Shown piece by piece: positions 9,235 to 20,027 of a stretch of DNA of 22,856 bases. The notes beneath the pieces are model-generated. The model ran no database searches. It was not told the origin of the DNA and saw only the letters and a list, made by a program, of their open reading frames with translations. The stretch covers positions 1-22,856 of the IMG/VR virus record IMGVR_UViG_3300032246_000841; one strand, 5' to 3'. Numbering within the stretch: position 1 is the first letter of the stretch; the number at the start of each line of letters is the position of its first letter. Position numbers and translations under genes: made by a program. Source of the DNA: a virus.

Positions 9235-10092
9235 ATGACAACAAAAATTAACTATTTGAATAATAAGGATATGCTTTCTGAAATACATAAAAGCAAAAGT
9301 TCTTATTGTAGTTTTACCGATCCAAAATATCACCAATATGATTTAATTGTGCCAAGTTTGGAAAAAATCAATATACGCACAGTTGCAGAAGCTAAACGAA
9401 ATCAAGCAAAACGTATCGGAGATGCTGAATATCAAAGGCGTAAAAAAGCAGGTGAAAAAGTCAAACAAGCAGACTGTGAGGTTGACTATAAGAAAATTCA
9501 AAAGCTAGATTTGGTGTTTAGAGTCATGACTTTTGACCATATTCCGCTTAATAATACTCGCAAAAAGAATCCTAAAAGTCTTGCTGATCACAGAGATAAA
9601 GTAAACTTTCCTCCTTTCCAACATTGGAAATTCAACGAAGAAGATGAGCTAGTTTGTGTGGGCAAAAGCCATTGGAAAGGCAGTTTAGAAAAAGGCAAGT
9701 TTGATAAAGATGCTGGTTGTATCACTGACACACTTGCTCGTATGATGATTAAATTGTGTGAACGATATGCTACTCGCGGCAACGTTCGTGGTTACACTTA
9801 CAATGATGAAATGCGAGGTCAAGCTATACTACAACTAACACAAGTAGGACTACAATTCGATGAATCAAAAAGTGATAATCCTTTTGCTTATTTTACCGCG
9901 GCAGTGACTAACAGCTTTGTTCGTGTTATTAATATTGAAAAACGCAATCAAAACATTCGTGACGATATTTTAGAAATGAATGGTATGAATCCATCTTACT
10001 CACGTACTGGCGCTGGAGAACATGCGGCCGCACTAAAACGACATGCAGAGGACACAACTAATGAACCAACAACCGACACACCAACTGTTTAA
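9235..10092 (+). CDS. 55: Late-transcription sigma factor gp55
   Basis: gp55 replaces sigma70 on host RNA polymerase and recognises the TATAAATA-type late promoter, working with the sliding clamp in T4. The protein has 285 residues against 185 in T4. N-terminal INYLNNKDMLSEIHKS matches the gp55 start (YVNNKELLQAI in T4), and residues about 160-245 carry the sigma-2-like helices: ITDTLARMMIKLCERYA, DEMRGQAILQLTQVGLQFDE and NPFAYFTAAVTNSFVRVINI, where N-P-F/H-A-Y-x-T is the family hallmark. The extra length is a lysine-rich insert at residues 30-150 of unknown role. It heads an operon with the recombination nuclease and overlaps gp47 by 32 bases. Confidence 0.88.
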   Translation: MTTKINYLNNKDMLSEIHKSKSSYCSFTDPKYHQYDLIVPSLEKINIRTVAEAKRNQAKRIGDAEYQRRKKAGEKVKQADCEVDYKKIQKLDLVFRVMTFDHIPLNNTRKKNPKSLADHRDKVNFPPFQHWKFNEEDELVCVGKSHWKGSLEKGKFDKDAGCITDTLARMMIKLCERYATRGNVRGYTYNDEMRGQAILQLTQVGLQFDESKSDNPFAYFTAAVTNSFVRVINIEKRNQNIRDDILEMNGMNPSYSRTGAGEHAAALKRHAEDTTNEPTTDTPTV

Positions 10093-11089
10093 AAAAGTTG
10101 CCTGTTTCACAGACATACACTTTGGACTGAAATCTAACAGTAGTGTACATAATCAAGACTGCGAAGATTTTGTAGATTGGTATATTGCTAAAGCTAAGGA
10201 GGAAGGCTGTGACACTGGAATTTTTATGGGCGATTGGCATCACAATCGCAATAGTCTTAATATCACTACTATGGACTATAGCCTTAGGGCCTTGGAAAAG
10301 CTCGGTCAGGCGTTCGATAAATTTTATTTCTTCCCTGGTAATCATGATCTGTATTATAAAGATAAACGGGACATACACTCCGTCGAGTTTGGAAAATATA
10401 TTCCCGGCATCACTGTGGTACATGAGCCTATTACTATTGGCGATGTCACGTTATGTCCGTGGCTCATCGGGGACGAGTGGCGAAGCATAGGTAAAAAGGG
10501 CGGCAAATATATATTTGGCCATTTTGAATTGCCCAGCTTCTTTATGAACGCTATGGTACAAATGCCAGATCATGGAGAAATTGCGCTAGACAGTTTTAAA
10601 GGTTATGAACTAGGATTTAGCGGACACTTTCATAAACGTCAGCAACAAAAGAACATGATTTACATTGGCAATGCTTTTCCGCACAACTATGCAGATGCGT
10701 GGGATGATGACCGTGGCATGATGATATTAGAATGGAACGGCGAGCCTCAATATCATAGTTGGCCAGATCAGCCTACATTCCGTACTGTTACATTAAGCAG
10801 ATTAATCGATGAAGCAGATACGATTATTAAACCTAAACAACACCTGCGTGTTGCATTAGACATAGATATTAGCTATGAAGAAGCTAGTTTTATTAAAGAA
10901 AAATTTATTACGGATTATGCCATTCGCGAATTAACTTTAATTACAGAACGTAAAGAAGTTGAAATGAATACTAATATTGATATCCAGTCGTTTGAATCAG
11001 TAGATCAGATTGTTTCCAATCAGATTGTAAATATTGACTCAGACACGTATAATAAGAATACCTTGCTGGAAATTTATAATAGCCTATGA
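10061..11089 (+). CDS. 47: Recombination endonuclease subunit gp47 (SbcD/Mre11-like)
   Basis: gp47 is the metallophosphoesterase nuclease that, with gp46, resects DNA ends for recombination-dependent replication. All catalytic motifs are present, numbered from the chosen start: D18-I-H20, G57-D58-W-H-H-N-R, G93-N-H-D96, G153-H154-F-E and G188-H189-F-H191. The total of 342 residues is close to T4 gp47 (339). An upstream in-frame ATG at 10043 exists, but the ATG at 10061 has AGAGGA eight bases before it and is preferred. The 3' end overlaps gp46 by four bases (ATGA), which suggests translational coupling of the two subunits. Confidence 0.93.
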   Translation: MNQQPTHQLFKKVACFTDIHFGLKSNSSVHNQDCEDFVDWYIAKAKEEGCDTGIFMGDWHHNRNSLNITTMDYSLRALEKLGQAFDKFYFFPGNHDLYYKDKRDIHSVEFGKYIPGITVVHEPITIGDVTLCPWLIGDEWRSIGKKGGKYIFGHFELPSFFMNAMVQMPDHGEIALDSFKGYELGFSGHFHKRQQQKNMIYIGNAFPHNYADAWDDDRGMMILEWNGEPQYHSWPDQPTFRTVTLSRLIDEADTIIKPKQHLRVALDIDISYEEASFIKEKFITDYAIRELTLITERKEVEMNTNIDIQSFESVDQIVSNQIVNIDSDTYNKNTLLEIYNSL

Positions 11090-12864
11090 TAAAGATTAAA
11101 GAATTAACTGTTAAAAACTTCATGAGTGTGGGTAACCAAACTCAAGGAGTAGCGTTTGACAAAGCTAACCTAACACTTGTGCTGGGTGAAAATTTAGATC
11201 AAGGCGGTGATGATAGTGGTAGCCGTAATGGTACTGGTAAAACAACTATTGTAAATGCGCTGAGTTTCGCACTATTTGGCAATGCTCTTACTAACATCAA
11301 AAAAGATAATCTTATTAACAAGATTAACAACAAGAATATGTTGGTTACATTGAGCTTTGAAAAAAACGGTATTAACTATCGTATCGAGCGTGGGCGCAAA
11401 CCTACGCTCATGCGTTTCTTTGTAGATGATCGAGAACAGGAAGCAGAAGAAACAGATGACGCACAAGGCGACATGCGTGAAACGCAAAAAGACTTAGACG
11501 ATTTGTTGGGTATGAGTCACGATATGTTCAAGCATATTGTGGCATTGAACACTTATACAGAACCCTTTTTAAGTATGCGGGCCAATGATCAACGTGCTAT
11601 TATTGAACAGTTATTGGGCATAACTATTCTATCTGAAAAGGCAGAAACACTTAAAGAACTGATTAGAACGACTAAAGATCAAGTGCTACAAGAAAGCGCA
11701 GATATCGAGGCCGCTAAAAAATCTAATGAAAAAATTCAACTTAGTGTTGACAGTTTGATAACAAGACAAAATGCGTGGAACACTCAGCACGAAGCAGATA
11801 TCGAAAGAACAGCACGGGCCATTATCGAACTTGAGAATGTGGATATTGAAGCTGAACTAGCTAAACACGCAGAGCTTAAGGCCTACGAAGAAAAGACAGC
11901 GAAGCTGAAAAGCCTAAATAAGGAGCGGGCAACGCTAGACAGCGCGACAGCGCAAGCGGAGCGAAGCGTAAAAAAGTACGCTGACGAGCTTGCTAAGTTG
12001 AAAGACAAAAAGTGTCACGCTTGTGAACAGGAATTGCATGATCACAAACATGAAGAAATGTCTGCTACGGCTCAGCAACACCTGGCTGAAGCTAACAAGT
12101 ACAATGCCAAAGTGGCGGCCGATCTTGCTAAAATTATGAAAGAAATCGCCGCCATCGGCGAAGTCACACAGCGTCCTAATACCTATTATGAAACAGTAGA
12201 GGCCGCGCTTAAACATCAGAACAATTTAAAAACTCTTGAAACTCAGTTGACAGTTAAAACAGGCGAGCACGATCCTTATCAAGAACAAATTGACGAGCTA
12301 CGTCATACTGCCATGCAGGAAATTTCTTGGGATCGGGTCAATGAACTGAATACACTTAAAGATCATCAAGAGTTTTTACTTAAACTATTAACCAGTAAAG
12401 ATAGCTTTATACGCAAGAAGATCATAGATCAAAACCTAGCTTATTTGAACAATCGTCTAACTTATTATCTTGATAAGATGGGCCTACCGCACACTGTGGT
12501 ATTCCAAAATGACTTAACAGTTGAGATAACACAGCTAGGGCAAGACTTAGATTTTGATAACCTAAGTCGAGGAGAGCGTAACAGGCTTATACTTGGTTTG
12601 TCATGGAGTTTCCGTGACGTGTGGGAAAGTCTATATCAGCAGATTAATCTGCTGTTTGTAGACGAATTAATTGACAACGGTTTAGATGCTAGCGGTGTTG
12701 AATCGGCACTAGCGGTACTTAAAAAGATGTCACGTGAACGTAAAAAGAACATCTTCTTAATTAGTCATAAGGACGAATTAATTGGACGGGTAAACAACGT
12801 ACTTAAAGTTATTAAAGAAAATGGCTTTACAAGTTACGCAAATGACTTAGAGGTAACAGAATAA
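11086..12864 (+). CDS. 46: Recombination endonuclease ATPase subunit gp46 (SbcC/Rad50-like)
   Basis: gp46 is the ABC-type ATPase partner of gp47. Seen in order: a Walker A motif GSRNGTGKTT (residues 45-54), a long charged coiled-coil region (about 180-440), a zinc hook C310-H-A-C313 at the coil apex, the ABC signature LSRGER (493-498), and a Walker B motif with FVDE (D526-E527) followed by DNGLDASG (D-loop region). A late ISHKDEL supplies the switch histidine. The length of 592 residues is close to T4 gp46 (560). There is a short insertion between the GEN turn (34-36) and Walker A. A GC-rich stretch at 11920-11970 in the coil differs from the neighbouring base composition. Confidence 0.94.
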   Translation: MIKIKELTVKNFMSVGNQTQGVAFDKANLTLVLGENLDQGGDDSGSRNGTGKTTIVNALSFALFGNALTNIKKDNLINKINNKNMLVTLSFEKNGINYRIERGRKPTLMRFFVDDREQEAEETDDAQGDMRETQKDLDDLLGMSHDMFKHIVALNTYTEPFLSMRANDQRAIIEQLLGITILSEKAETLKELIRTTKDQVLQESADIEAAKKSNEKIQLSVDSLITRQNAWNTQHEADIERTARAIIELENVDIEAELAKHAELKAYEEKTAKLKSLNKERATLDSATAQAERSVKKYADELAKLKDKKCHACEQELHDHKHEEMSATAQQHLAEANKYNAKVAADLAKIMKEIAAIGEVTQRPNTYYETVEAALKHQNNLKTLETQLTVKTGEHDPYQEQIDELRHTAMQEISWDRVNELNTLKDHQEFLLKLLTSKDSFIRKKIIDQNLAYLNNRLTYYLDKMGLPHTVVFQNDLTVEITQLGQDLDFDNLSRGERNRLILGLSWSFRDVWESLYQQINLLFVDELIDNGLDASGVESALAVLKKMSRERKKNIFLISHKDELIGRVNNVLKVIKENGFTSYANDLEVTE

Positions 12865-13336: not shown

Positions 13337-13771
13337 ATGTCATGGACTTATGAGAATACCGTAGTAGAAACACTACCCGAGGAATGTATCGGGTTCGTAT
13401 ATCTTATAACCAATGTCATCTCTGGGCGCATGTATATAGGCAAAAAATTAGCCAAATTCTCCAAAACCACATATAAAACAGTAAAGCTAAAAAACGGCAC
13501 AAAGAAAAAGAAAAGAATTCGCAGTAAAATTGATTCAGACTGGCGTGAATACTATGGTAGCTCGCCCGAACTAAGCAAGGATGTTGCGGCATTAGGCGCA
13601 GAAAACTTCACCAGAGAAATATTATTTTACTGTCAATCCAAATCAGAATGCAGTTACATAGAGGCTCGTGAGCAATTTAGTCGTCGTGTACTAGAGTCAA
13701 ATGACTATTATAACGGTCATATTCAAGTGCGTGTACACGGTTCACACATTCGTAAACTTCAAGAAAACTAG
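13337..13771 (+). CDS. GIY-YIG-type endonuclease
   Basis: A 144-residue protein with a GIY-YIG nuclease N-terminus: residues 18-36 read GFVYLITNVISGRMYIGKK, where F-V-Y and Y-I-G-K-K replace the two signature triplets. A lysine-rich linker follows, then DWREYYGSSPELSKDVAALG, a REI strand and a YIEAREQF segment with the glutamate expected for metal binding. Single-domain phage proteins of this pattern are common. They may be homing-type nucleases or relatives of T4 endonuclease II (DenA), and I cannot separate these options. No strong ribosome binding site is seen before 13337. It is the last gene of the operon and borders the structured intergenic region. Confidence 0.82.
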   Translation: MSWTYENTVVETLPEECIGFVYLITNVISGRMYIGKKLAKFSKTTYKTVKLKNGTKKKKRIRSKIDSDWREYYGSSPELSKDVAALGAENFTREILFYCQSKSECSYIEAREQFSRRVLESNDYYNGHIQVRVHGSHIRKLQEN

Positions 13772-15107: not shown

Positions 15108-15341
15108 CTAGAGCAAGGCAATACCACTTTTTTGTGTAAGTTCAATATTGTCTTGCACAATCTTCGTCATTATTTCAACATCTTCGTGTGAATACACATG
15201 CAGTAGTTCTTCCATGGTTACTCCGCCACGCATGAACCAGCTGAGTTTGAACAATTGATTTTTAAATTTCTTTATGTCTTCATCCAGCCTAACTAGATGT
15301 GTTTCAGTTTCTTGCGCAGATAACCCAGTTAGGCGTTGACG
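15108..15341 (-). CDS. -1 frame extension of gp26-type gene (77 codons), likely made by ribosomal frameshift
   Basis: This reading frame overlaps the end of the gp26-type gene in the -1 frame and ends with TAG at 15110-15108. It encodes RQRLTGLSAQ, a charged helix, QLFKLSWFMRGGVTMEELLH, SHEDVEIMTKIVQDNIELTQ and ends KSGIALL. The F-K-x-S-W-F-M-R-G-G segment and the E-D-x-x-x-x-x-K-I-x-x-x-N-I-E-x-T-x-x-S-G end recall small proteins found beside gp26 in cyanophage-type genomes. No ATG precedes the conserved part; the first in-frame ATG lies inside W-F-M. A stop in this frame lies 48 bases upstream of the extension, within the gp26 gene. A slippery AAATTTTTTC and a strong stem make a 349-residue fusion the best explanation. 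A separate product from a non-ATG start is the alternative. Confidence 0.7.
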   Translation of the reverse strand, partial: RQRLTGLSAQETETHLVRLDEDIKKFKNQLFKLSWFMRGGVTMEELLHVYSHEDVEIMTKIVQDNIELTQKSGIALL

Positions 15342-15350
15342 AAAAAATTT
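15287..15350 (-). promoter_or_regulatory. Candidate -1 ribosomal frameshift signal
   Basis: On the minus strand, AAATTTTTTC (15350-15341) contains two in-frame X-XXY-YYZ heptamers, A-AAT-TTT and T-TTT-TTC. Six bases later a perfect 8-bp stem begins: GCCTAACT (15334-15327) pairs with AGTTAGGC (15294-15287). It extends inward by four more pairs including G-U, closing a loop of about 24 bases. Heptamer, spacer and stem match the standard layout of bacterial and phage frameshift sites. The gp26-frame stop TAA (15331-15329) lies inside the stem. Confidence 0.75.
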
Positions 15351-16156
15351 GACTGGTCCATGTTTACTTGGATTTGATTTTCAGCATTACAGTTATTACA
15401 ATTAACAGCAACTTTAGGCATTTCCCAAGCTAGTCTATTTTTATCCACGTGAGCCTTGATAGCATCAAATACATTAGACTCGCTATTAACCAACCACTCT
15501 TCGATAAACTCTCGCTGATTAACATTAGTTTCGCTAGTTTGTACGCTGTCTATCTGCAACATCATTACTTCGGTTTGAAGTGATGATATCAATTCAAACA
15601 ATGCATTAACCAACTTATTTTGTTCTTTTTCATCAGTTATATTGATGGCTTGTTGTAATTGTTTTTGTACACCAAAGTTTTTAAGTTGGAAATTGGTCCA
15701 CTGACGATAGTTGAGCGGTCTAGTAGCAACTGATACATCTTTTAATACTAACTTGTTATCATATTGGCATTTGCTAAGATGATCAATAATAATGCTTAGT
15801 TCAATATCGTAGTCATTGACGGATTTGCAATGGGGGCAAGTGTGTGCAACAGCCATACTATTACCAAAGGTCGCAATACGTATAGCTGTTAATATAATAT
15901 CTAGATCTAACAACGATAAATCCCATGCATCTTTGATTGTGGCACAGCAACTTTCAATCACCTTAACTGTGCTCTCACCTGACAGTAATGCATCTGGAGT
16001 TTTAAGCATAATTTCATCCATGCCAGTCATACCAAACACTGGTATGTTTGTAGGGTCGCCTGCCAGTGTGCCTGGCTGATTGTAAATGCCCCCGGACGGC
16101 AGGTTAATGTAAACTTTAGGTTGTCGAAAGTACTTCTTTAATGGATTATTAGCCAT
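15329..16156 (-). CDS. 26: Baseplate hub assembly protein / tail chaperone gp26-type
   Basis: A 275-residue protein resembling the T4 gp26 baseplate family (Pfam T4_baseplate). The N-terminus KKYFRQPKVYINLPSGGIYN is followed by a helical region with GMTGMDEIMLKTPDALLSGE and VIESCCATIKD, then DLDIILTAIRIATFGNSMAV. Two cysteine pairs, C107-P-H-C110 and C253-N-N-C256, could bind zinc together. The start has CTGGAG ten bases upstream and a consensus late promoter beyond. The gene is divergent from the tape measure gene and convergent with 14265-15104, three bases apart. Its 3' end carries the frameshift signal described separately, so a short form of 275 residues and a long form of 349 are expected. 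In other contractile and lambda-like phages such a pair coats the tape measure. Confidence 0.75.
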   Translation of the reverse strand: MANNPLKKYFRQPKVYINLPSGGIYNQPGTLAGDPTNIPVFGMTGMDEIMLKTPDALLSGESTVKVIESCCATIKDAWDLSLLDLDIILTAIRIATFGNSMAVAHTCPHCKSVNDYDIELSIIIDHLSKCQYDNKLVLKDVSVATRPLNYRQWTNFQLKNFGVQKQLQQAINITDEKEQNKLVNALFELISSLQTEVMMLQIDSVQTSETNVNQREFIEEWLVNSESNVFDAIKAHVDKNRLAWEMPKVAVNCNNCNAENQIQVNMDQSNFFVNA

Positions 16157-16218: not shown

Positions 16219-18279
16219 ATGACCGATTTAGAAAAAAAGATAGACGCCCTGATTACCAAAATGGACGGTCTAGTAACCTCTAGTGGTAGATCTTCTTTGT
16301 TTCAAAGTTCTAGCTCATCTAGTAGTAGTGCCACAGATGTAATAACACCAGCTTTTAAAACATTAGTTGACAAATTAGGCAACGGTATTGGCAACGTGTT
16401 TGATACCGCGTCGGAATATCTTGGCAAATCGTTTCAAAATCAAACTGGTCCACAGGATTTATCCAACGCAATTACTAAAACAATTGGTCAAATTGGCGGT
16501 CCGTTTTCCGCTCTAGCTAAAGCACTTGACGGAGTTTCTTCAGCTGTACTCGACAGCTATCAAAACTGGCAAAAATTCTCCGGACTTGGTTTGCAGATGG
16601 GCGGCGACTTTCTAGGTCTTAACACCGCAATTAAACAAACTGGTCTAACTGTTGAGCAGTTTGGAGAACAGTTTGAAGGCATTGGTAATGCGGCTCGTAG
16701 TCTTGGAATGGGTTTTAGTCAAGGCATGAAAGCATTTGGTGAAATTAGCAAACTACAAGATGATCCTGAGTTCGCTAAAAACTTTAAATTATTAGGGATG
16801 ATGCCCAAGGATGTCAACAGTGCGTTAACAACAGTTATTAGATCAATGGATACAGTGGCAAAAGGAACGACTAACGAACAATTAATGGCTTCGACTCTGG
16901 CACTATCTAGAGAAATGGATGCCATGGCCAAGCTGACAGGCAAGAGTCGTCAGGAACAAGAAAAAACTATCGAAGTCATGCAAAACGATTTCAGATTCCG
17001 TGCTAAAATGAGTGAGTTACGGGAGACTAATCCCGAAGGTGCGAAGGCGGCAGGCGCCTTAACAACGCAATTGAAAGGACTTGATCCTGCTGTCGCTAAT
17101 TTACTAGCAGAAGGTATTGCTAACGAAGGTGTTTTTAATACTGAAAAGATTTACGAATTCCAAGCGGTATATGGCCCAGAAGCGGCCAATAAGATGGCGC
17201 AGATCAGTAGAAATATTACTTCACAAGATGCTGAAGTTAGAAACAAAGCACTTAATGACAGTAAAACACTGGTGATAGAATTAACCCAGATGAGCAAAGC
17301 TAATAGACGTTTTATTGCTGGCGGCGCTGTTGACAATGAATTTGCAAGAAATCGATTTGGCGGAGCAAATAATCCTTACGAAAATCTCGACAAAACTTTG
17401 GCCGCCTTAGCAAGAGAAGGAATAACCGATCCTACAAAAGCCTACGATGAAGCTACACGCAGAATTAATTTGGAGGCAGAAGGTAAAATAGCGGTACTTA
17501 CTAAAGAGATGGAAGCCAAAAACGAAGCGGCCAAGGCAGAAGGTAAAGGGCCAATTTATGAATTAGGCAAAAAAAATCCCGACGTTATTCTTACTGAAGT
17601 TATAGGCGCTGTTGAAACTAATCAACAGAGATTTAACAAAGGGCTGAATGAGATAGTAGAGGTAATGACACAAAACGCTACTAAGTTAGTTGATATGCAG
17701 AAAATGCTCCAAGAAGCAAGTCTTCAATATACAAAAGGTTATCGTAAAGACGGCACGCCGATTCAAGGTAGTAGAATTACAGCAGGCATGGAAGCCGCCA
17801 AAGTGGAAATTACCAAGATGGGTGATCTTCCTGAAAATTGGGCCGCTAAAATTGGAGATGCCACAGTTAAGAATGTGAAAGAACAAGTAGGAGGTCACCG
17901 TGGTGGAACTATGGGTAATATAGGCAGTTGGTTTGATAACTTCGGTGACGGCACTATATCTGTATTGCACGGCAATGAAGGAGTATTCACTCCTGATCAA
18001 GCAGAAGCGTTTGCTACTCAAAAATTCAGCAACATTATTCCTAACTTGTCATCTTTATTGCGCAATGTAGAAACCAAAATTAGTAGCGATAGCCCTGTTA
18101 GTAGCCAAGTAATGGAACAGTTGGCCAGTGGTGCAGATGCGGCCATGAATTTATCTGCCGAGAAGCTGGATGCGATAAGTAGTTTACTAGCGGCTAATTT
18201 AAATGAACTAAAAGAAATCGCCCGTCATACATCTAATACATCGGATAATATTAGCAATGCTGGCGGCTATGTTAGTTAA
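16219..18279 (+). CDS. Tail tape measure protein (gp29-like role)
   Basis: A 686-residue, mostly helical protein. The N-terminus is a short coil followed by a serine run (residues 22-39). Gly/Ala/Leu-rich amphipathic helices then run through residues 45-260 (LSNAITKTIGQIGGPFSALA, GMGFSQGMKAFGEISKLQDD). Near residues 555-595 is GTMGNIGSWFDNFGDGTISV followed by LHGNEGVFTPDQA, a Gly-rich turn and H-G-x-E-x-V/F-x-x-P pattern frequent in tape measure proteins. The last 100 residues are helical with Asn-rich ends. Its role would be to set tail length and occupy the tube, with the gp26-type protein as probable assembly chaperone. T4 gp29 has 590 residues. AGGGA precedes the start. It opens the head operon on the plus strand. 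Confidence 0.7.
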   Translation: MTDLEKKIDALITKMDGLVTSSGRSSLFQSSSSSSSSATDVITPAFKTLVDKLGNGIGNVFDTASEYLGKSFQNQTGPQDLSNAITKTIGQIGGPFSALAKALDGVSSAVLDSYQNWQKFSGLGLQMGGDFLGLNTAIKQTGLTVEQFGEQFEGIGNAARSLGMGFSQGMKAFGEISKLQDDPEFAKNFKLLGMMPKDVNSALTTVIRSMDTVAKGTTNEQLMASTLALSREMDAMAKLTGKSRQEQEKTIEVMQNDFRFRAKMSELRETNPEGAKAAGALTTQLKGLDPAVANLLAEGIANEGVFNTEKIYEFQAVYGPEAANKMAQISRNITSQDAEVRNKALNDSKTLVIELTQMSKANRRFIAGGAVDNEFARNRFGGANNPYENLDKTLAALAREGITDPTKAYDEATRRINLEAEGKIAVLTKEMEAKNEAAKAEGKGPIYELGKKNPDVILTEVIGAVETNQQRFNKGLNEIVEVMTQNATKLVDMQKMLQEASLQYTKGYRKDGTPIQGSRITAGMEAAKVEITKMGDLPENWAAKIGDATVKNVKEQVGGHRGGTMGNIGSWFDNFGDGTISVLHGNEGVFTPDQAEAFATQKFSNIIPNLSSLLRNVETKISSDSPVSSQVMEQLASGADAAMNLSAEKLDAISSLLAANLNELKEIARHTSNTSDNISNAGGYVS

Positions 18280-18293
18280 GGACCCAATATAAT

Positions 18294-20027
18294 ATGAGTT
18301 GGAAGAAATTTTTTACACCAGTATCTGTAGAATCGCAATATCGCAGTACTATTGGTACCGGTAATACCAGCGCAGGTATGGGCCCTGCTAAGACAAACTA
18401 TTCAAGTTACTTGCCTGATGTATATTCAGGTAGCCCAAACCGTATTGAACGTTATCAACAGTATGAAACCATGGACAGCGATCCAGAGGTTAATGCGGCT
18501 TTAGACATTTTAGCTGAGTTTTGCACACAAAAAAACAAAGATGGTAACAATGCGGCCTTTAGTATTGAATGGCGTAGTAAAGCTACCAATAGCGAAACTA
18601 AGATTTTAGGCGAATACCTGAGTCAATGGACTAAACTACAACAATTTGAAACACGTATATTCCGTATACTGCGCAATACATTCAAATACGGCGACAGTTT
18701 CTTTATTCGTGATCCAGAAACACAAAAATGGTTTTATGTGGATCCAAGCAAAGTAGTTAAGATCATTGCCAACGAAAGCGAAGGTAAAAAACCAGAACAA
18801 TATATCATACGTGATATTAACCCTAATTTTCAAAATTTAGTAGCTACTGCTATCACACCTAATGTAAAAGATACAAGCAAAGGCGGCAGTGGAGTTGGTT
18901 CAGGAGGTATTGCGGCACGCGGTATGACAGGTGCATACCCAACAATGCAAGGCGGTCGTTGGGACAAACAAGAAAATGAAATGGCCATCGATGCTGTTCA
19001 TGTGATACATCTGTCATTAAGCGAAGGTTTAGACAATAACTATCCCTTTGGCAATAGCTTATTAGAAAATATATTCAAGGTTTACAAGCAAAAAGAACTT
19101 TTAGAAGATGCTATCCTTATCTATCGTATACAACGTGCTCCAGAAAGACGCATCTTTCACATAGATGTAGGTAACATGCCCAGTCACTTGGCCATGGCGT
19201 TTGTGGAAAGAGTCAAAGACCAGATCCATCAACGTAGAATTCCTAGCCAAAATGGTGGCGGTCAGAACGTTATTGACAGTGCATACAATCCGTTAAGCAT
19301 TAATGAAGACTATTTCTTCCCTAAATCAGCAGACGGACGCGGCAGTGATGTTACAACATTGCCCGGCGGTACTAACTTAGGCGAAATTGACGACTTAAAA
19401 TACTTTACTAACAAGTTATTCCGTGGTTTGCGCATACCAAGTAGTTATTTGCCAACAGGTGCCGACGACAGTAACAGCAGTTATAACGATGGCCGCGTAG
19501 GTACAGCATACATTCAAGAGCTACGTTTTAACAAATATTGCGAAAGATTACAAAGTTTAATATCAGGTAACTTTGATATTGAATTTAAAATGTATCTAAG
19601 TACTCGCGGTGTTAACATTGACTCAACATTATTTGATATTAAGTTTAATCCTCCGTTAAACTTTGCAAGTTCGCGCCAAGCCGCACTTGATACTGAACGA
19701 ATCAACACATTTAACACCATACAAGCAGTGCCTTATGTAAGTCATCGCTTTGCTTTAAAGCGTTTCTTAGGCTTAACCGACGAAGAGATTGCAGAAAACG
19801 AACGTCTATGGGCAGAAGAACAAGGCGATGGCAACCCAACTGGTACTGACAGTGCTGGAGAATTACGTAGTGCAGGTTTATCAGCAGGCGGACTTGCTGG
19901 AGATATTGATAGCGAAAGTGATTTGTCAGCGCCAGAAGGCATGGAAAATCCAGAAGCACCACCTCCGGGCATGGACGCGGCCGGAGCACCAGCTGGCGGA
20001 ATGCCCGGAACTCCTCCAGTAGCATAA
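18294..20027 (+). CDS. 20: Portal vertex protein gp20
   Basis: gp20 forms the dodecameric portal at the head vertex through which DNA is packaged. The 577-residue protein (T4: 524) has the expected landmarks: RYQQYETMDSDPEVNAALDI near residues 53-72, RNTFKYGDSFFIRDPETQKW, VDPSKVVKII, then LEDAILIYRIQRAPERRIFH near 265-285 and RIPSQNGGGQNVIDSAYNPL with ISINEDYFFP-like sequence, and the clip/crown region LKYFTNKLFRGLRIPSSYLP. The C-terminal 50 residues are a Pro/Gly/Ala-rich tail. The start has AAGGA upstream, 14 bases after the tape measure stop. It is one of the most secure assignments here. Confidence 0.95.
   Translation: MSWKKFFTPVSVESQYRSTIGTGNTSAGMGPAKTNYSSYLPDVYSGSPNRIERYQQYETMDSDPEVNAALDILAEFCTQKNKDGNNAAFSIEWRSKATNSETKILGEYLSQWTKLQQFETRIFRILRNTFKYGDSFFIRDPETQKWFYVDPSKVVKIIANESEGKKPEQYIIRDINPNFQNLVATAITPNVKDTSKGGSGVGSGGIAARGMTGAYPTMQGGRWDKQENEMAIDAVHVIHLSLSEGLDNNYPFGNSLLENIFKVYKQKELLEDAILIYRIQRAPERRIFHIDVGNMPSHLAMAFVERVKDQIHQRRIPSQNGGGQNVIDSAYNPLSINEDYFFPKSADGRGSDVTTLPGGTNLGEIDDLKYFTNKLFRGLRIPSSYLPTGADDSNSSYNDGRVGTAYIQELRFNKYCERLQSLISGNFDIEFKMYLSTRGVNIDSTLFDIKFNPPLNFASSRQAALDTERINTFNTIQAVPYVSHRFALKRFLGLTDEEIAENERLWAEEQGDGNPTGTDSAGELRSAGLSAGGLAGDIDSESDLSAPEGMENPEAPPPGMDAAGAPAGGMPGTPPVA

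Follow-up and report, generated by a model that had tools for sequence, protein, structure and literature searches.

A candidate programmed -1 ribosomal frameshift in the gp26-type tail assembly chaperone gene of T4-related phages

Described tail assembly chaperones and the gp26-type gene of the window

Xu, Hendrix and Duda reportedly found in 2004 that the frameshift of tail assembly chaperone genes is conserved in long-tailed phages. This lambda gpG/gpGT-type frameshift has been described as conserved in long-tailed phages with T4 noted as an exception (PMC5009743), and T4 gp26 and gp51 were listed as hub assembly chaperones (PMC3004832). T4-like tail assembly chaperones, with T4 gp26 and gp51, are treated by Vladimirov, Gautam and Davidson (2022, Virology 566:9-15), going by the citation of that work in PMC10885494 and PMC12846349; given that study as cited there, the general idea is not new, and frameshifted tail chaperones have long been known. 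What may be additional here is the breadth of the arrangement in jumbo phages, a covarying hairpin containing the stop codon, and the natural control offered by a two-gene lineage.

The window, that is the whole stretch of DNA analysed here, is IMGVR_UViG_3300032246_000841, a complete viral contig of a public collection with a length of 22,856 bp. Its minus strand carries a gp26-type gene (16156-15329) whose short form of 275 aa was recognised by its ORF, PF12322, phrog_150 and predicted fold. As in lambda gpG/gpGT, one gene would give a short and a frameshifted long form through a low-level -1 shift near its 3' end, and it lies beside a putative tape measure gene. It differs from lambda in its T TTT TTC site, in its unrelated sequence (PF12322), in the covarying, stop-containing stem found in the window's group and in the divergent orientation of the neighbour.

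The likeness to T4 lies in the shared gp26-type family and in the existence there, too, of a short and a long form. In T4, however, each form comes from its own gene, with the long copy in frame, whereas the window has one gene with a frameshift signal. T4 gp51 matches PF12322 over 1-201 and phrog_634 over 147-246, and T4 gp26 and gp51 are similar to each other (BLASTP E 2e-6). No heptamer was found at the ends of the gp26-type genes of T4, 44RR, AB1I1T and EC-F2, which have a separate in-frame gp51-type long gene; this absence is expected if phages with a separate long gene have no need of a frameshift. The combination of an in-frame long gene with a heptamer-free short one does not describe the window gene, as judged within the 22.9-kb fragment, which is part of the phage. 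In Enterobacter phage EC-F2 (locus L178, 1501-2794) the gp51-type long gene and a smaller gp26-like gene stand in tandem on one strand, rather than divergently as in T4, which is another state of the two-gene arrangement.

Two further systems come close. Phage Adele (Vandenendeviridae/Andersonviridae) has a chaperone frameshift with a GTTTTT motif, where the -1 shift occurs on a T run that closes the short form and the downstream ORF is annotated as hypothetical (PMC12846349); it belongs to other phage families and is likened here by its published description. The Kyanoviridae gp26 with its small 'gp51' shares T TTT TTC 10 nt before the stop (63/63 loci) and a -1 extension, but not the stem-loop of the window, and its extension is weakly similar to that of the window.

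The link from the window to T4 is drawn through Pfam, PHROGs and fold search, since a direct BLAST of the window gp26 against T4 gp26 or gp51 was not significant. The protein matches Pfam T4_baseplate PF12322 (E 1.7e-11) and phrog_150 (E 5.6e-15), with the database label 'baseplate hub', and its fold is predicted at pLDDT 87.9. Fold matches in BFVD were T4-like 'baseplate hub assembly' proteins (best E 1.4e-21), with Aeromonas phage 25 gp26 at E 7.5e-5; together with PF12322 they give the homology to the T4 gp26/gp51 family that was looked for in a tail assembly chaperone. By VIA-align the match falls mainly on the helical hairpin 146-202 of the gp26-type model. Foldseek of this model against the PDB returned no match with E <= 0.001, a profile search of the gp26 part and the extension against PDB sequences gave chance matches only, and nothing reached gathering level in Rfam. 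The missing PDB and profile matches are no evidence of a new fold. It is worth mentioning that two CxxC pairs (C107, C110, C253, C256), likely a zinc-ribbon site, occur in at least 90% of aligned relatives, and that proteins of about 500-550 aa with a similar predicted fold in other jumbo phages, namely Erwinia Special G, Ralstonia RSF1 and RP12 and Aeromonas PS1, are possibly unrecognised chaperones.

The slip site and its conservation among relatives

The last codons of the window gene are ATG GAC CAG TCA AAT TTT TTC GTC AAC GCC TAA. The two tandem heptamers that the initial annotation had read in the zero frame are present there, as A AAT TTT (15350-15344) and the overlapping T TTT TTC (15347-15341), so that A AAT TTT TTC spans 15350-15341 on the minus strand. 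They are followed by the 6-nt spacer GTCAAC (15340-15335), and the zero-frame stop TAA of the short form lies at 15331-15329. Taken alone, AAATTTTTTC is unremarkable, since it occurs once in the window where 0.38 occurrences are expected, and the case therefore depends on the relatives.

The alignment of gp26-type genes that had been proposed as a check was run on a comparison set of 149 genes, represented by 67 sequences at most 85% identical, and both frames as well as the slippery heptamer turned out to be kept. The C-terminal Phe-Phe codons read NNT TTT TTC in 65 of the representatives and NNT TTT TTT in the other 2, with an open -1 extension in all; a pattern of the type X XXY YYZ, here T TTT TTY, is thus conserved in the zero frame in 67/67. 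Codon usage at identical amino acids would predict about 8 heptamers in 67, and chance is excluded because all 67 diverse representatives retain it; the naive log10 P for this conservation is about -63, a value that ignores shared ancestry. Elsewhere in these genes Phe-Phe occurs 40 times, written TTC TTT (24), TTT TTT (11) or TTC TTC (5), and never TTT TTC.

The codon preceding TTT TTC is AGT in 33/67 representatives and AAT in 15/67, which makes A AAT TTT incidental and T TTT TTC the conserved site. The former, not being conserved, was dropped as a working heptamer, and the suggestion of a tandem signal stands for its second member only.

Searches of viral contigs gave 44 loci with the gp26-type protein as query and 26 with the extension. 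In all loci of sufficient length, T TTT TTC is read in the zero frame and the extension follows in the -1 frame; the heptamer precedes the stop by 10 to 49 nt, and the stop itself varies in position. In 63/63 distinct cyanophage contigs the heptamer lies exactly 10 nt upstream of the stop. The same architecture was found in the cultured jumbo phages Atu_ph07, Phosso, RaK2, 121Q, PA5oct and CBB, and it recurs, with T TTT TTC, in the cultured phages GAP32, Munch, SCTP-2, XaC1, Hallingskeid, Vibrio phage 2.275, XbC2, Kaldavass and BF, and likewise in the cyanophages P-RSM4 and S-RIM8 and in phage OLIVR5; XacN1 and RAS14 carry the variant T TTT TTT. With the Atu_ph07 protein as query, IMG/VR gave no match besides that protein itself.

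In Bacillus phage SP-15 (L091, 1881-2820) and Streptomyces phage LuckySocke (L092, 1722-2829), an open frame follows the gp26-type gene in the +1/-2 phase and directly precedes a large gene, annotated as the tape measure in SP-15. This phase suggests a different type of shift in these two lineages.

The -1 frame extension and its annotation

Past the Phe-Phe codons the -1 frame stays open for 77 codons until TAG at 15110-15108 (extension 15341-15108, minus strand), where it would encode the C-terminal domain of a 349-aa long form. As initially described, it contains WFMRGG and has no ATG ahead of this conserved part, the earliest -1 frame ATG being the Met of WFMRGG itself. Coding capacity, as distinct from expression, is in this way present for a short and a C-terminally extended form.

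In the window's group the extension is conserved over its whole length, from FFR at the slip site on, and its W, MRG and D positions are invariant. Stop codons are absent from the -1 frame in all 27 group members, while the two remaining frames contain 137 and 237. The -1 frame also has the lowest pN/pS, at 0.47 compared with 0.89 and 1.26, values read with pS near saturation. Selection thus acts on the -1 frame at the protein level, and no conserved independent start was found for it. By hhalign the window-group extension is homologous to that of the jumbo phages (E 5.7e-21). The comparison with the cyanophage extension was weak (prob 0.5 and 5.6), and as this profile comparison failed, homology there is read from position and motif only; the cyanophage extension, for its part, matches the C-terminus of T4-type gp51 (E 4.3e-6). 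The extension model is helical with moderate confidence (pLDDT 76.7); fold searches with it gave no match, and the window extension alone found no significant family in Pfam or PHROGs.

The extension could also be a separate small gene, translated from its own start or by termination-reinitiation at the gp26 stop. Public records do annotate it so, and an ATG overlaps the stop in Phosso and Atu_ph07 (ATGA) and in 121Q (TAATG). Nonetheless, an ATG occurs within the first 25 codons of only 36/66 extensions, and a start codon preceded by an SD-like 4-mer in only 8/66, where its position varies, so that the clear independent start with ribosome binding site which the initial annotation had named as contrary evidence was not found as a conserved feature among the 66. 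In the window there is no ATG before the conserved WFM. The protein is conserved without interruption as far back as FFR at the slip site, which precedes any start, and a separate gene would leave the invariant heptamer unexplained. We consider a separate gene very unlikely.

With a frameshift as the preferred reading, the annotation of the second half can be reconsidered. It is recorded as a separate small gene in 121Q (595), CBB (gp249), GAP32 (GAP32_242), Munch (Munch_275), Phosso (319) and Atu_ph07 (gp687), as 'gp51' in P-RSM4, S-RIM8 and OLIVR5, and is left without annotation in RaK2 and PA5oct. In agreement with the early suspicion that the small gene beside gp26 is misannotated, the small genes adjoining gp26 in jumbo phages, such as 121Q 595, CBB gp249 and GAP32_242, and the cyanophage 'gp51' are probably the misannotated second half of one gene, judging from their sequences. 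The small genes named 'gp51 baseplate hub assembly catalyst' in cyanophages and OLIVR5 (L088-L090, L096-L175) seem to represent the -1 part of gp26, their start codons having been set arbitrarily. A simple annotation rule would follow: where the last Phe-Phe of a gp26-type gene is written T TTT TTC, that gene and the frame after it are to be joined. One tail gene could then be read consistently throughout much of the T4-related group, many jumbo phages and marine cyanophages among them.

Stem-loop, proposed mechanism and neighbouring genes

Directly after the 6-nt spacer, a perfect 8-bp stem is formed on the minus strand by GCCTAACT (15334-15327) and AGTTAGGC (15294-15287). It extends to 12 bp, including two G-U pairs, when 15334-15323 is paired with 15298-15287, and the stop TAA (15331-15329) is located in the 5' arm; spacer, stem and enclosed stop are all as the initial annotation had them. 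In the 27 members of the window's group the spacer has equal length in 27/27, and the stem aligns without gaps with 96.9% of cells paired. Eleven pairs are conserved in this way between the 5' arm (15334-15323) and the 3' arm (15298-15287), and 6/11 show compensatory changes on both sides. Cells with a double change number 28 in this group, compared with 8.0 in shuffles and 0-8 when the partner is slid. Folding z is below -2 in 18/18 group representatives (median -4.5).

In most cyanophages and jumbo phages, on the other hand, folding z is near zero and the stem-loop is undetectable, although Atu_ph07 and Phosso have strong structures of their own. Of the proposed conservation of the stem, therefore, covariation holds within the window's group, where a covarying RNA structure begins within the 5-9 nt looked for downstream of the slip site, and is not seen in cyanophages and most jumbo relatives, so that the idea of a universal stem-loop was given up. 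The slip site, then, is general, and this presumed stimulator is a property of the window's lineage.

The heptamer conservation, the covariation of the stem in the group and the lack of a conserved start all support the initial proposal of a frameshift producing gp26 and a gp26-extension fusion. On this sequence evidence, the gp26-type gene very probably codes for a tail assembly chaperone and undergoes programmed -1 ribosomal frameshifting. Slippage could instead take place in transcription, where the RNA polymerase would stutter on the T run and a fraction of the mRNAs would be shifted; a T6 run is in fact present at the site in every member. Efficient transcriptional slippage usually requires longer runs, while the run here is of 6 T (7 in two) and never longer, its codon phase is fixed as NNT TTT TTY, and the covarying RNA stem that starts 6 nt further on agrees with stimulation of the ribosome, which leaves transcriptional slippage extremely unlikely. 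Finally, an assembly error or a decayed gene might mimic a frameshift, since indel errors are common at homopolymers and the window is a single metagenomic contig. This reading has next to no probability: it is refuted by recurrence, with the same architecture present in some 130 independent contigs and some 20 genomes of cultured phages, and the stop-free -1 frame and its pN/pS given above speak against it too.

For the programmed ribosomal frameshift, then, we infer the shift itself and its efficiency, as well as the chaperone function and the binding roles of the products, along the following lines. Most ribosomes would terminate at TAA 15331-15329, giving the 275-aa short form. A minority would slip at T TTT TTC (15347-15341), where the P-site and A-site tRNAs on UUU and UUC would re-pair on UUU UUU, one base back, aided by the stem-loop that begins 6 nt downstream. 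The slipped ribosomes would read the -1 frame and make the 349-aa fusion (...SNFF-RQRL...WFMRGG...). Both forms may cooperate as lambda gpG and gpGT do, in which case the shared N-terminal part would coat the tape measure and the rarer C-terminal domain would recruit tail-tube subunits.

We also lean slightly towards an evolutionary scenario in which the -1 shift at T TTT TTC is ancestral for the gp26-type chaperone, as represented in cyanophages, Pootjesviridae and RaK2-type jumbo phages. The T4 lineage would have replaced it by gene duplication and in-frame fusion of one copy, SP-15 and LuckySocke would have switched to a +1 or -2 shift, and the lineage of the window would have added the stop-codon-containing hairpin as a stimulator. 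Setting the two-gene arrangement of T4 beside the one-gene frameshift arrangement of its relatives makes the direction of change directly testable, and the same contrast would allow the need for a fixed ratio of short to long form to be tested. The arrangement itself is kept over a wide range of giant and marine relatives, in which the long version is, it would seem, usually misannotated.

The divergent neighbour on the plus strand (16219-18279) encodes a 686-aa putative tape measure or virion structural protein, and its homologues are divergent from gp26 in about 40 related loci. That a divergent tape measure gene lies next door had been part of the initial annotation; the protein is homologous to the neighbour gene of RaK2, 121Q and CBB (profile prob 94.7, E 5.8e-8), one RaK2-type homologue being annotated as tape-measure-like, but it gave no match to T4 gp29. 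A tape measure is its likely, still putative identity. This gene lies directly upstream of a T4-type portal gene (PF07230, E 6.5e-109; both within 16219-20027), and the same order of putative tape measure and portal is seen in RaK2, 121Q, PA5oct and CBB.

Elsewhere in the window, 9235-12864 holds gp47-type (Metallophos) and gp46-type (AAA_23) recombination genes in the midst of tail genes; the first ORF there, 9235-10092, matched nothing in Pfam and may, going by its appearance alone, code for a late sigma factor. A free-standing SegE-type GIY-YIG endonuclease (PF19835, E 1.3e-32) is encoded at 13337-13771.
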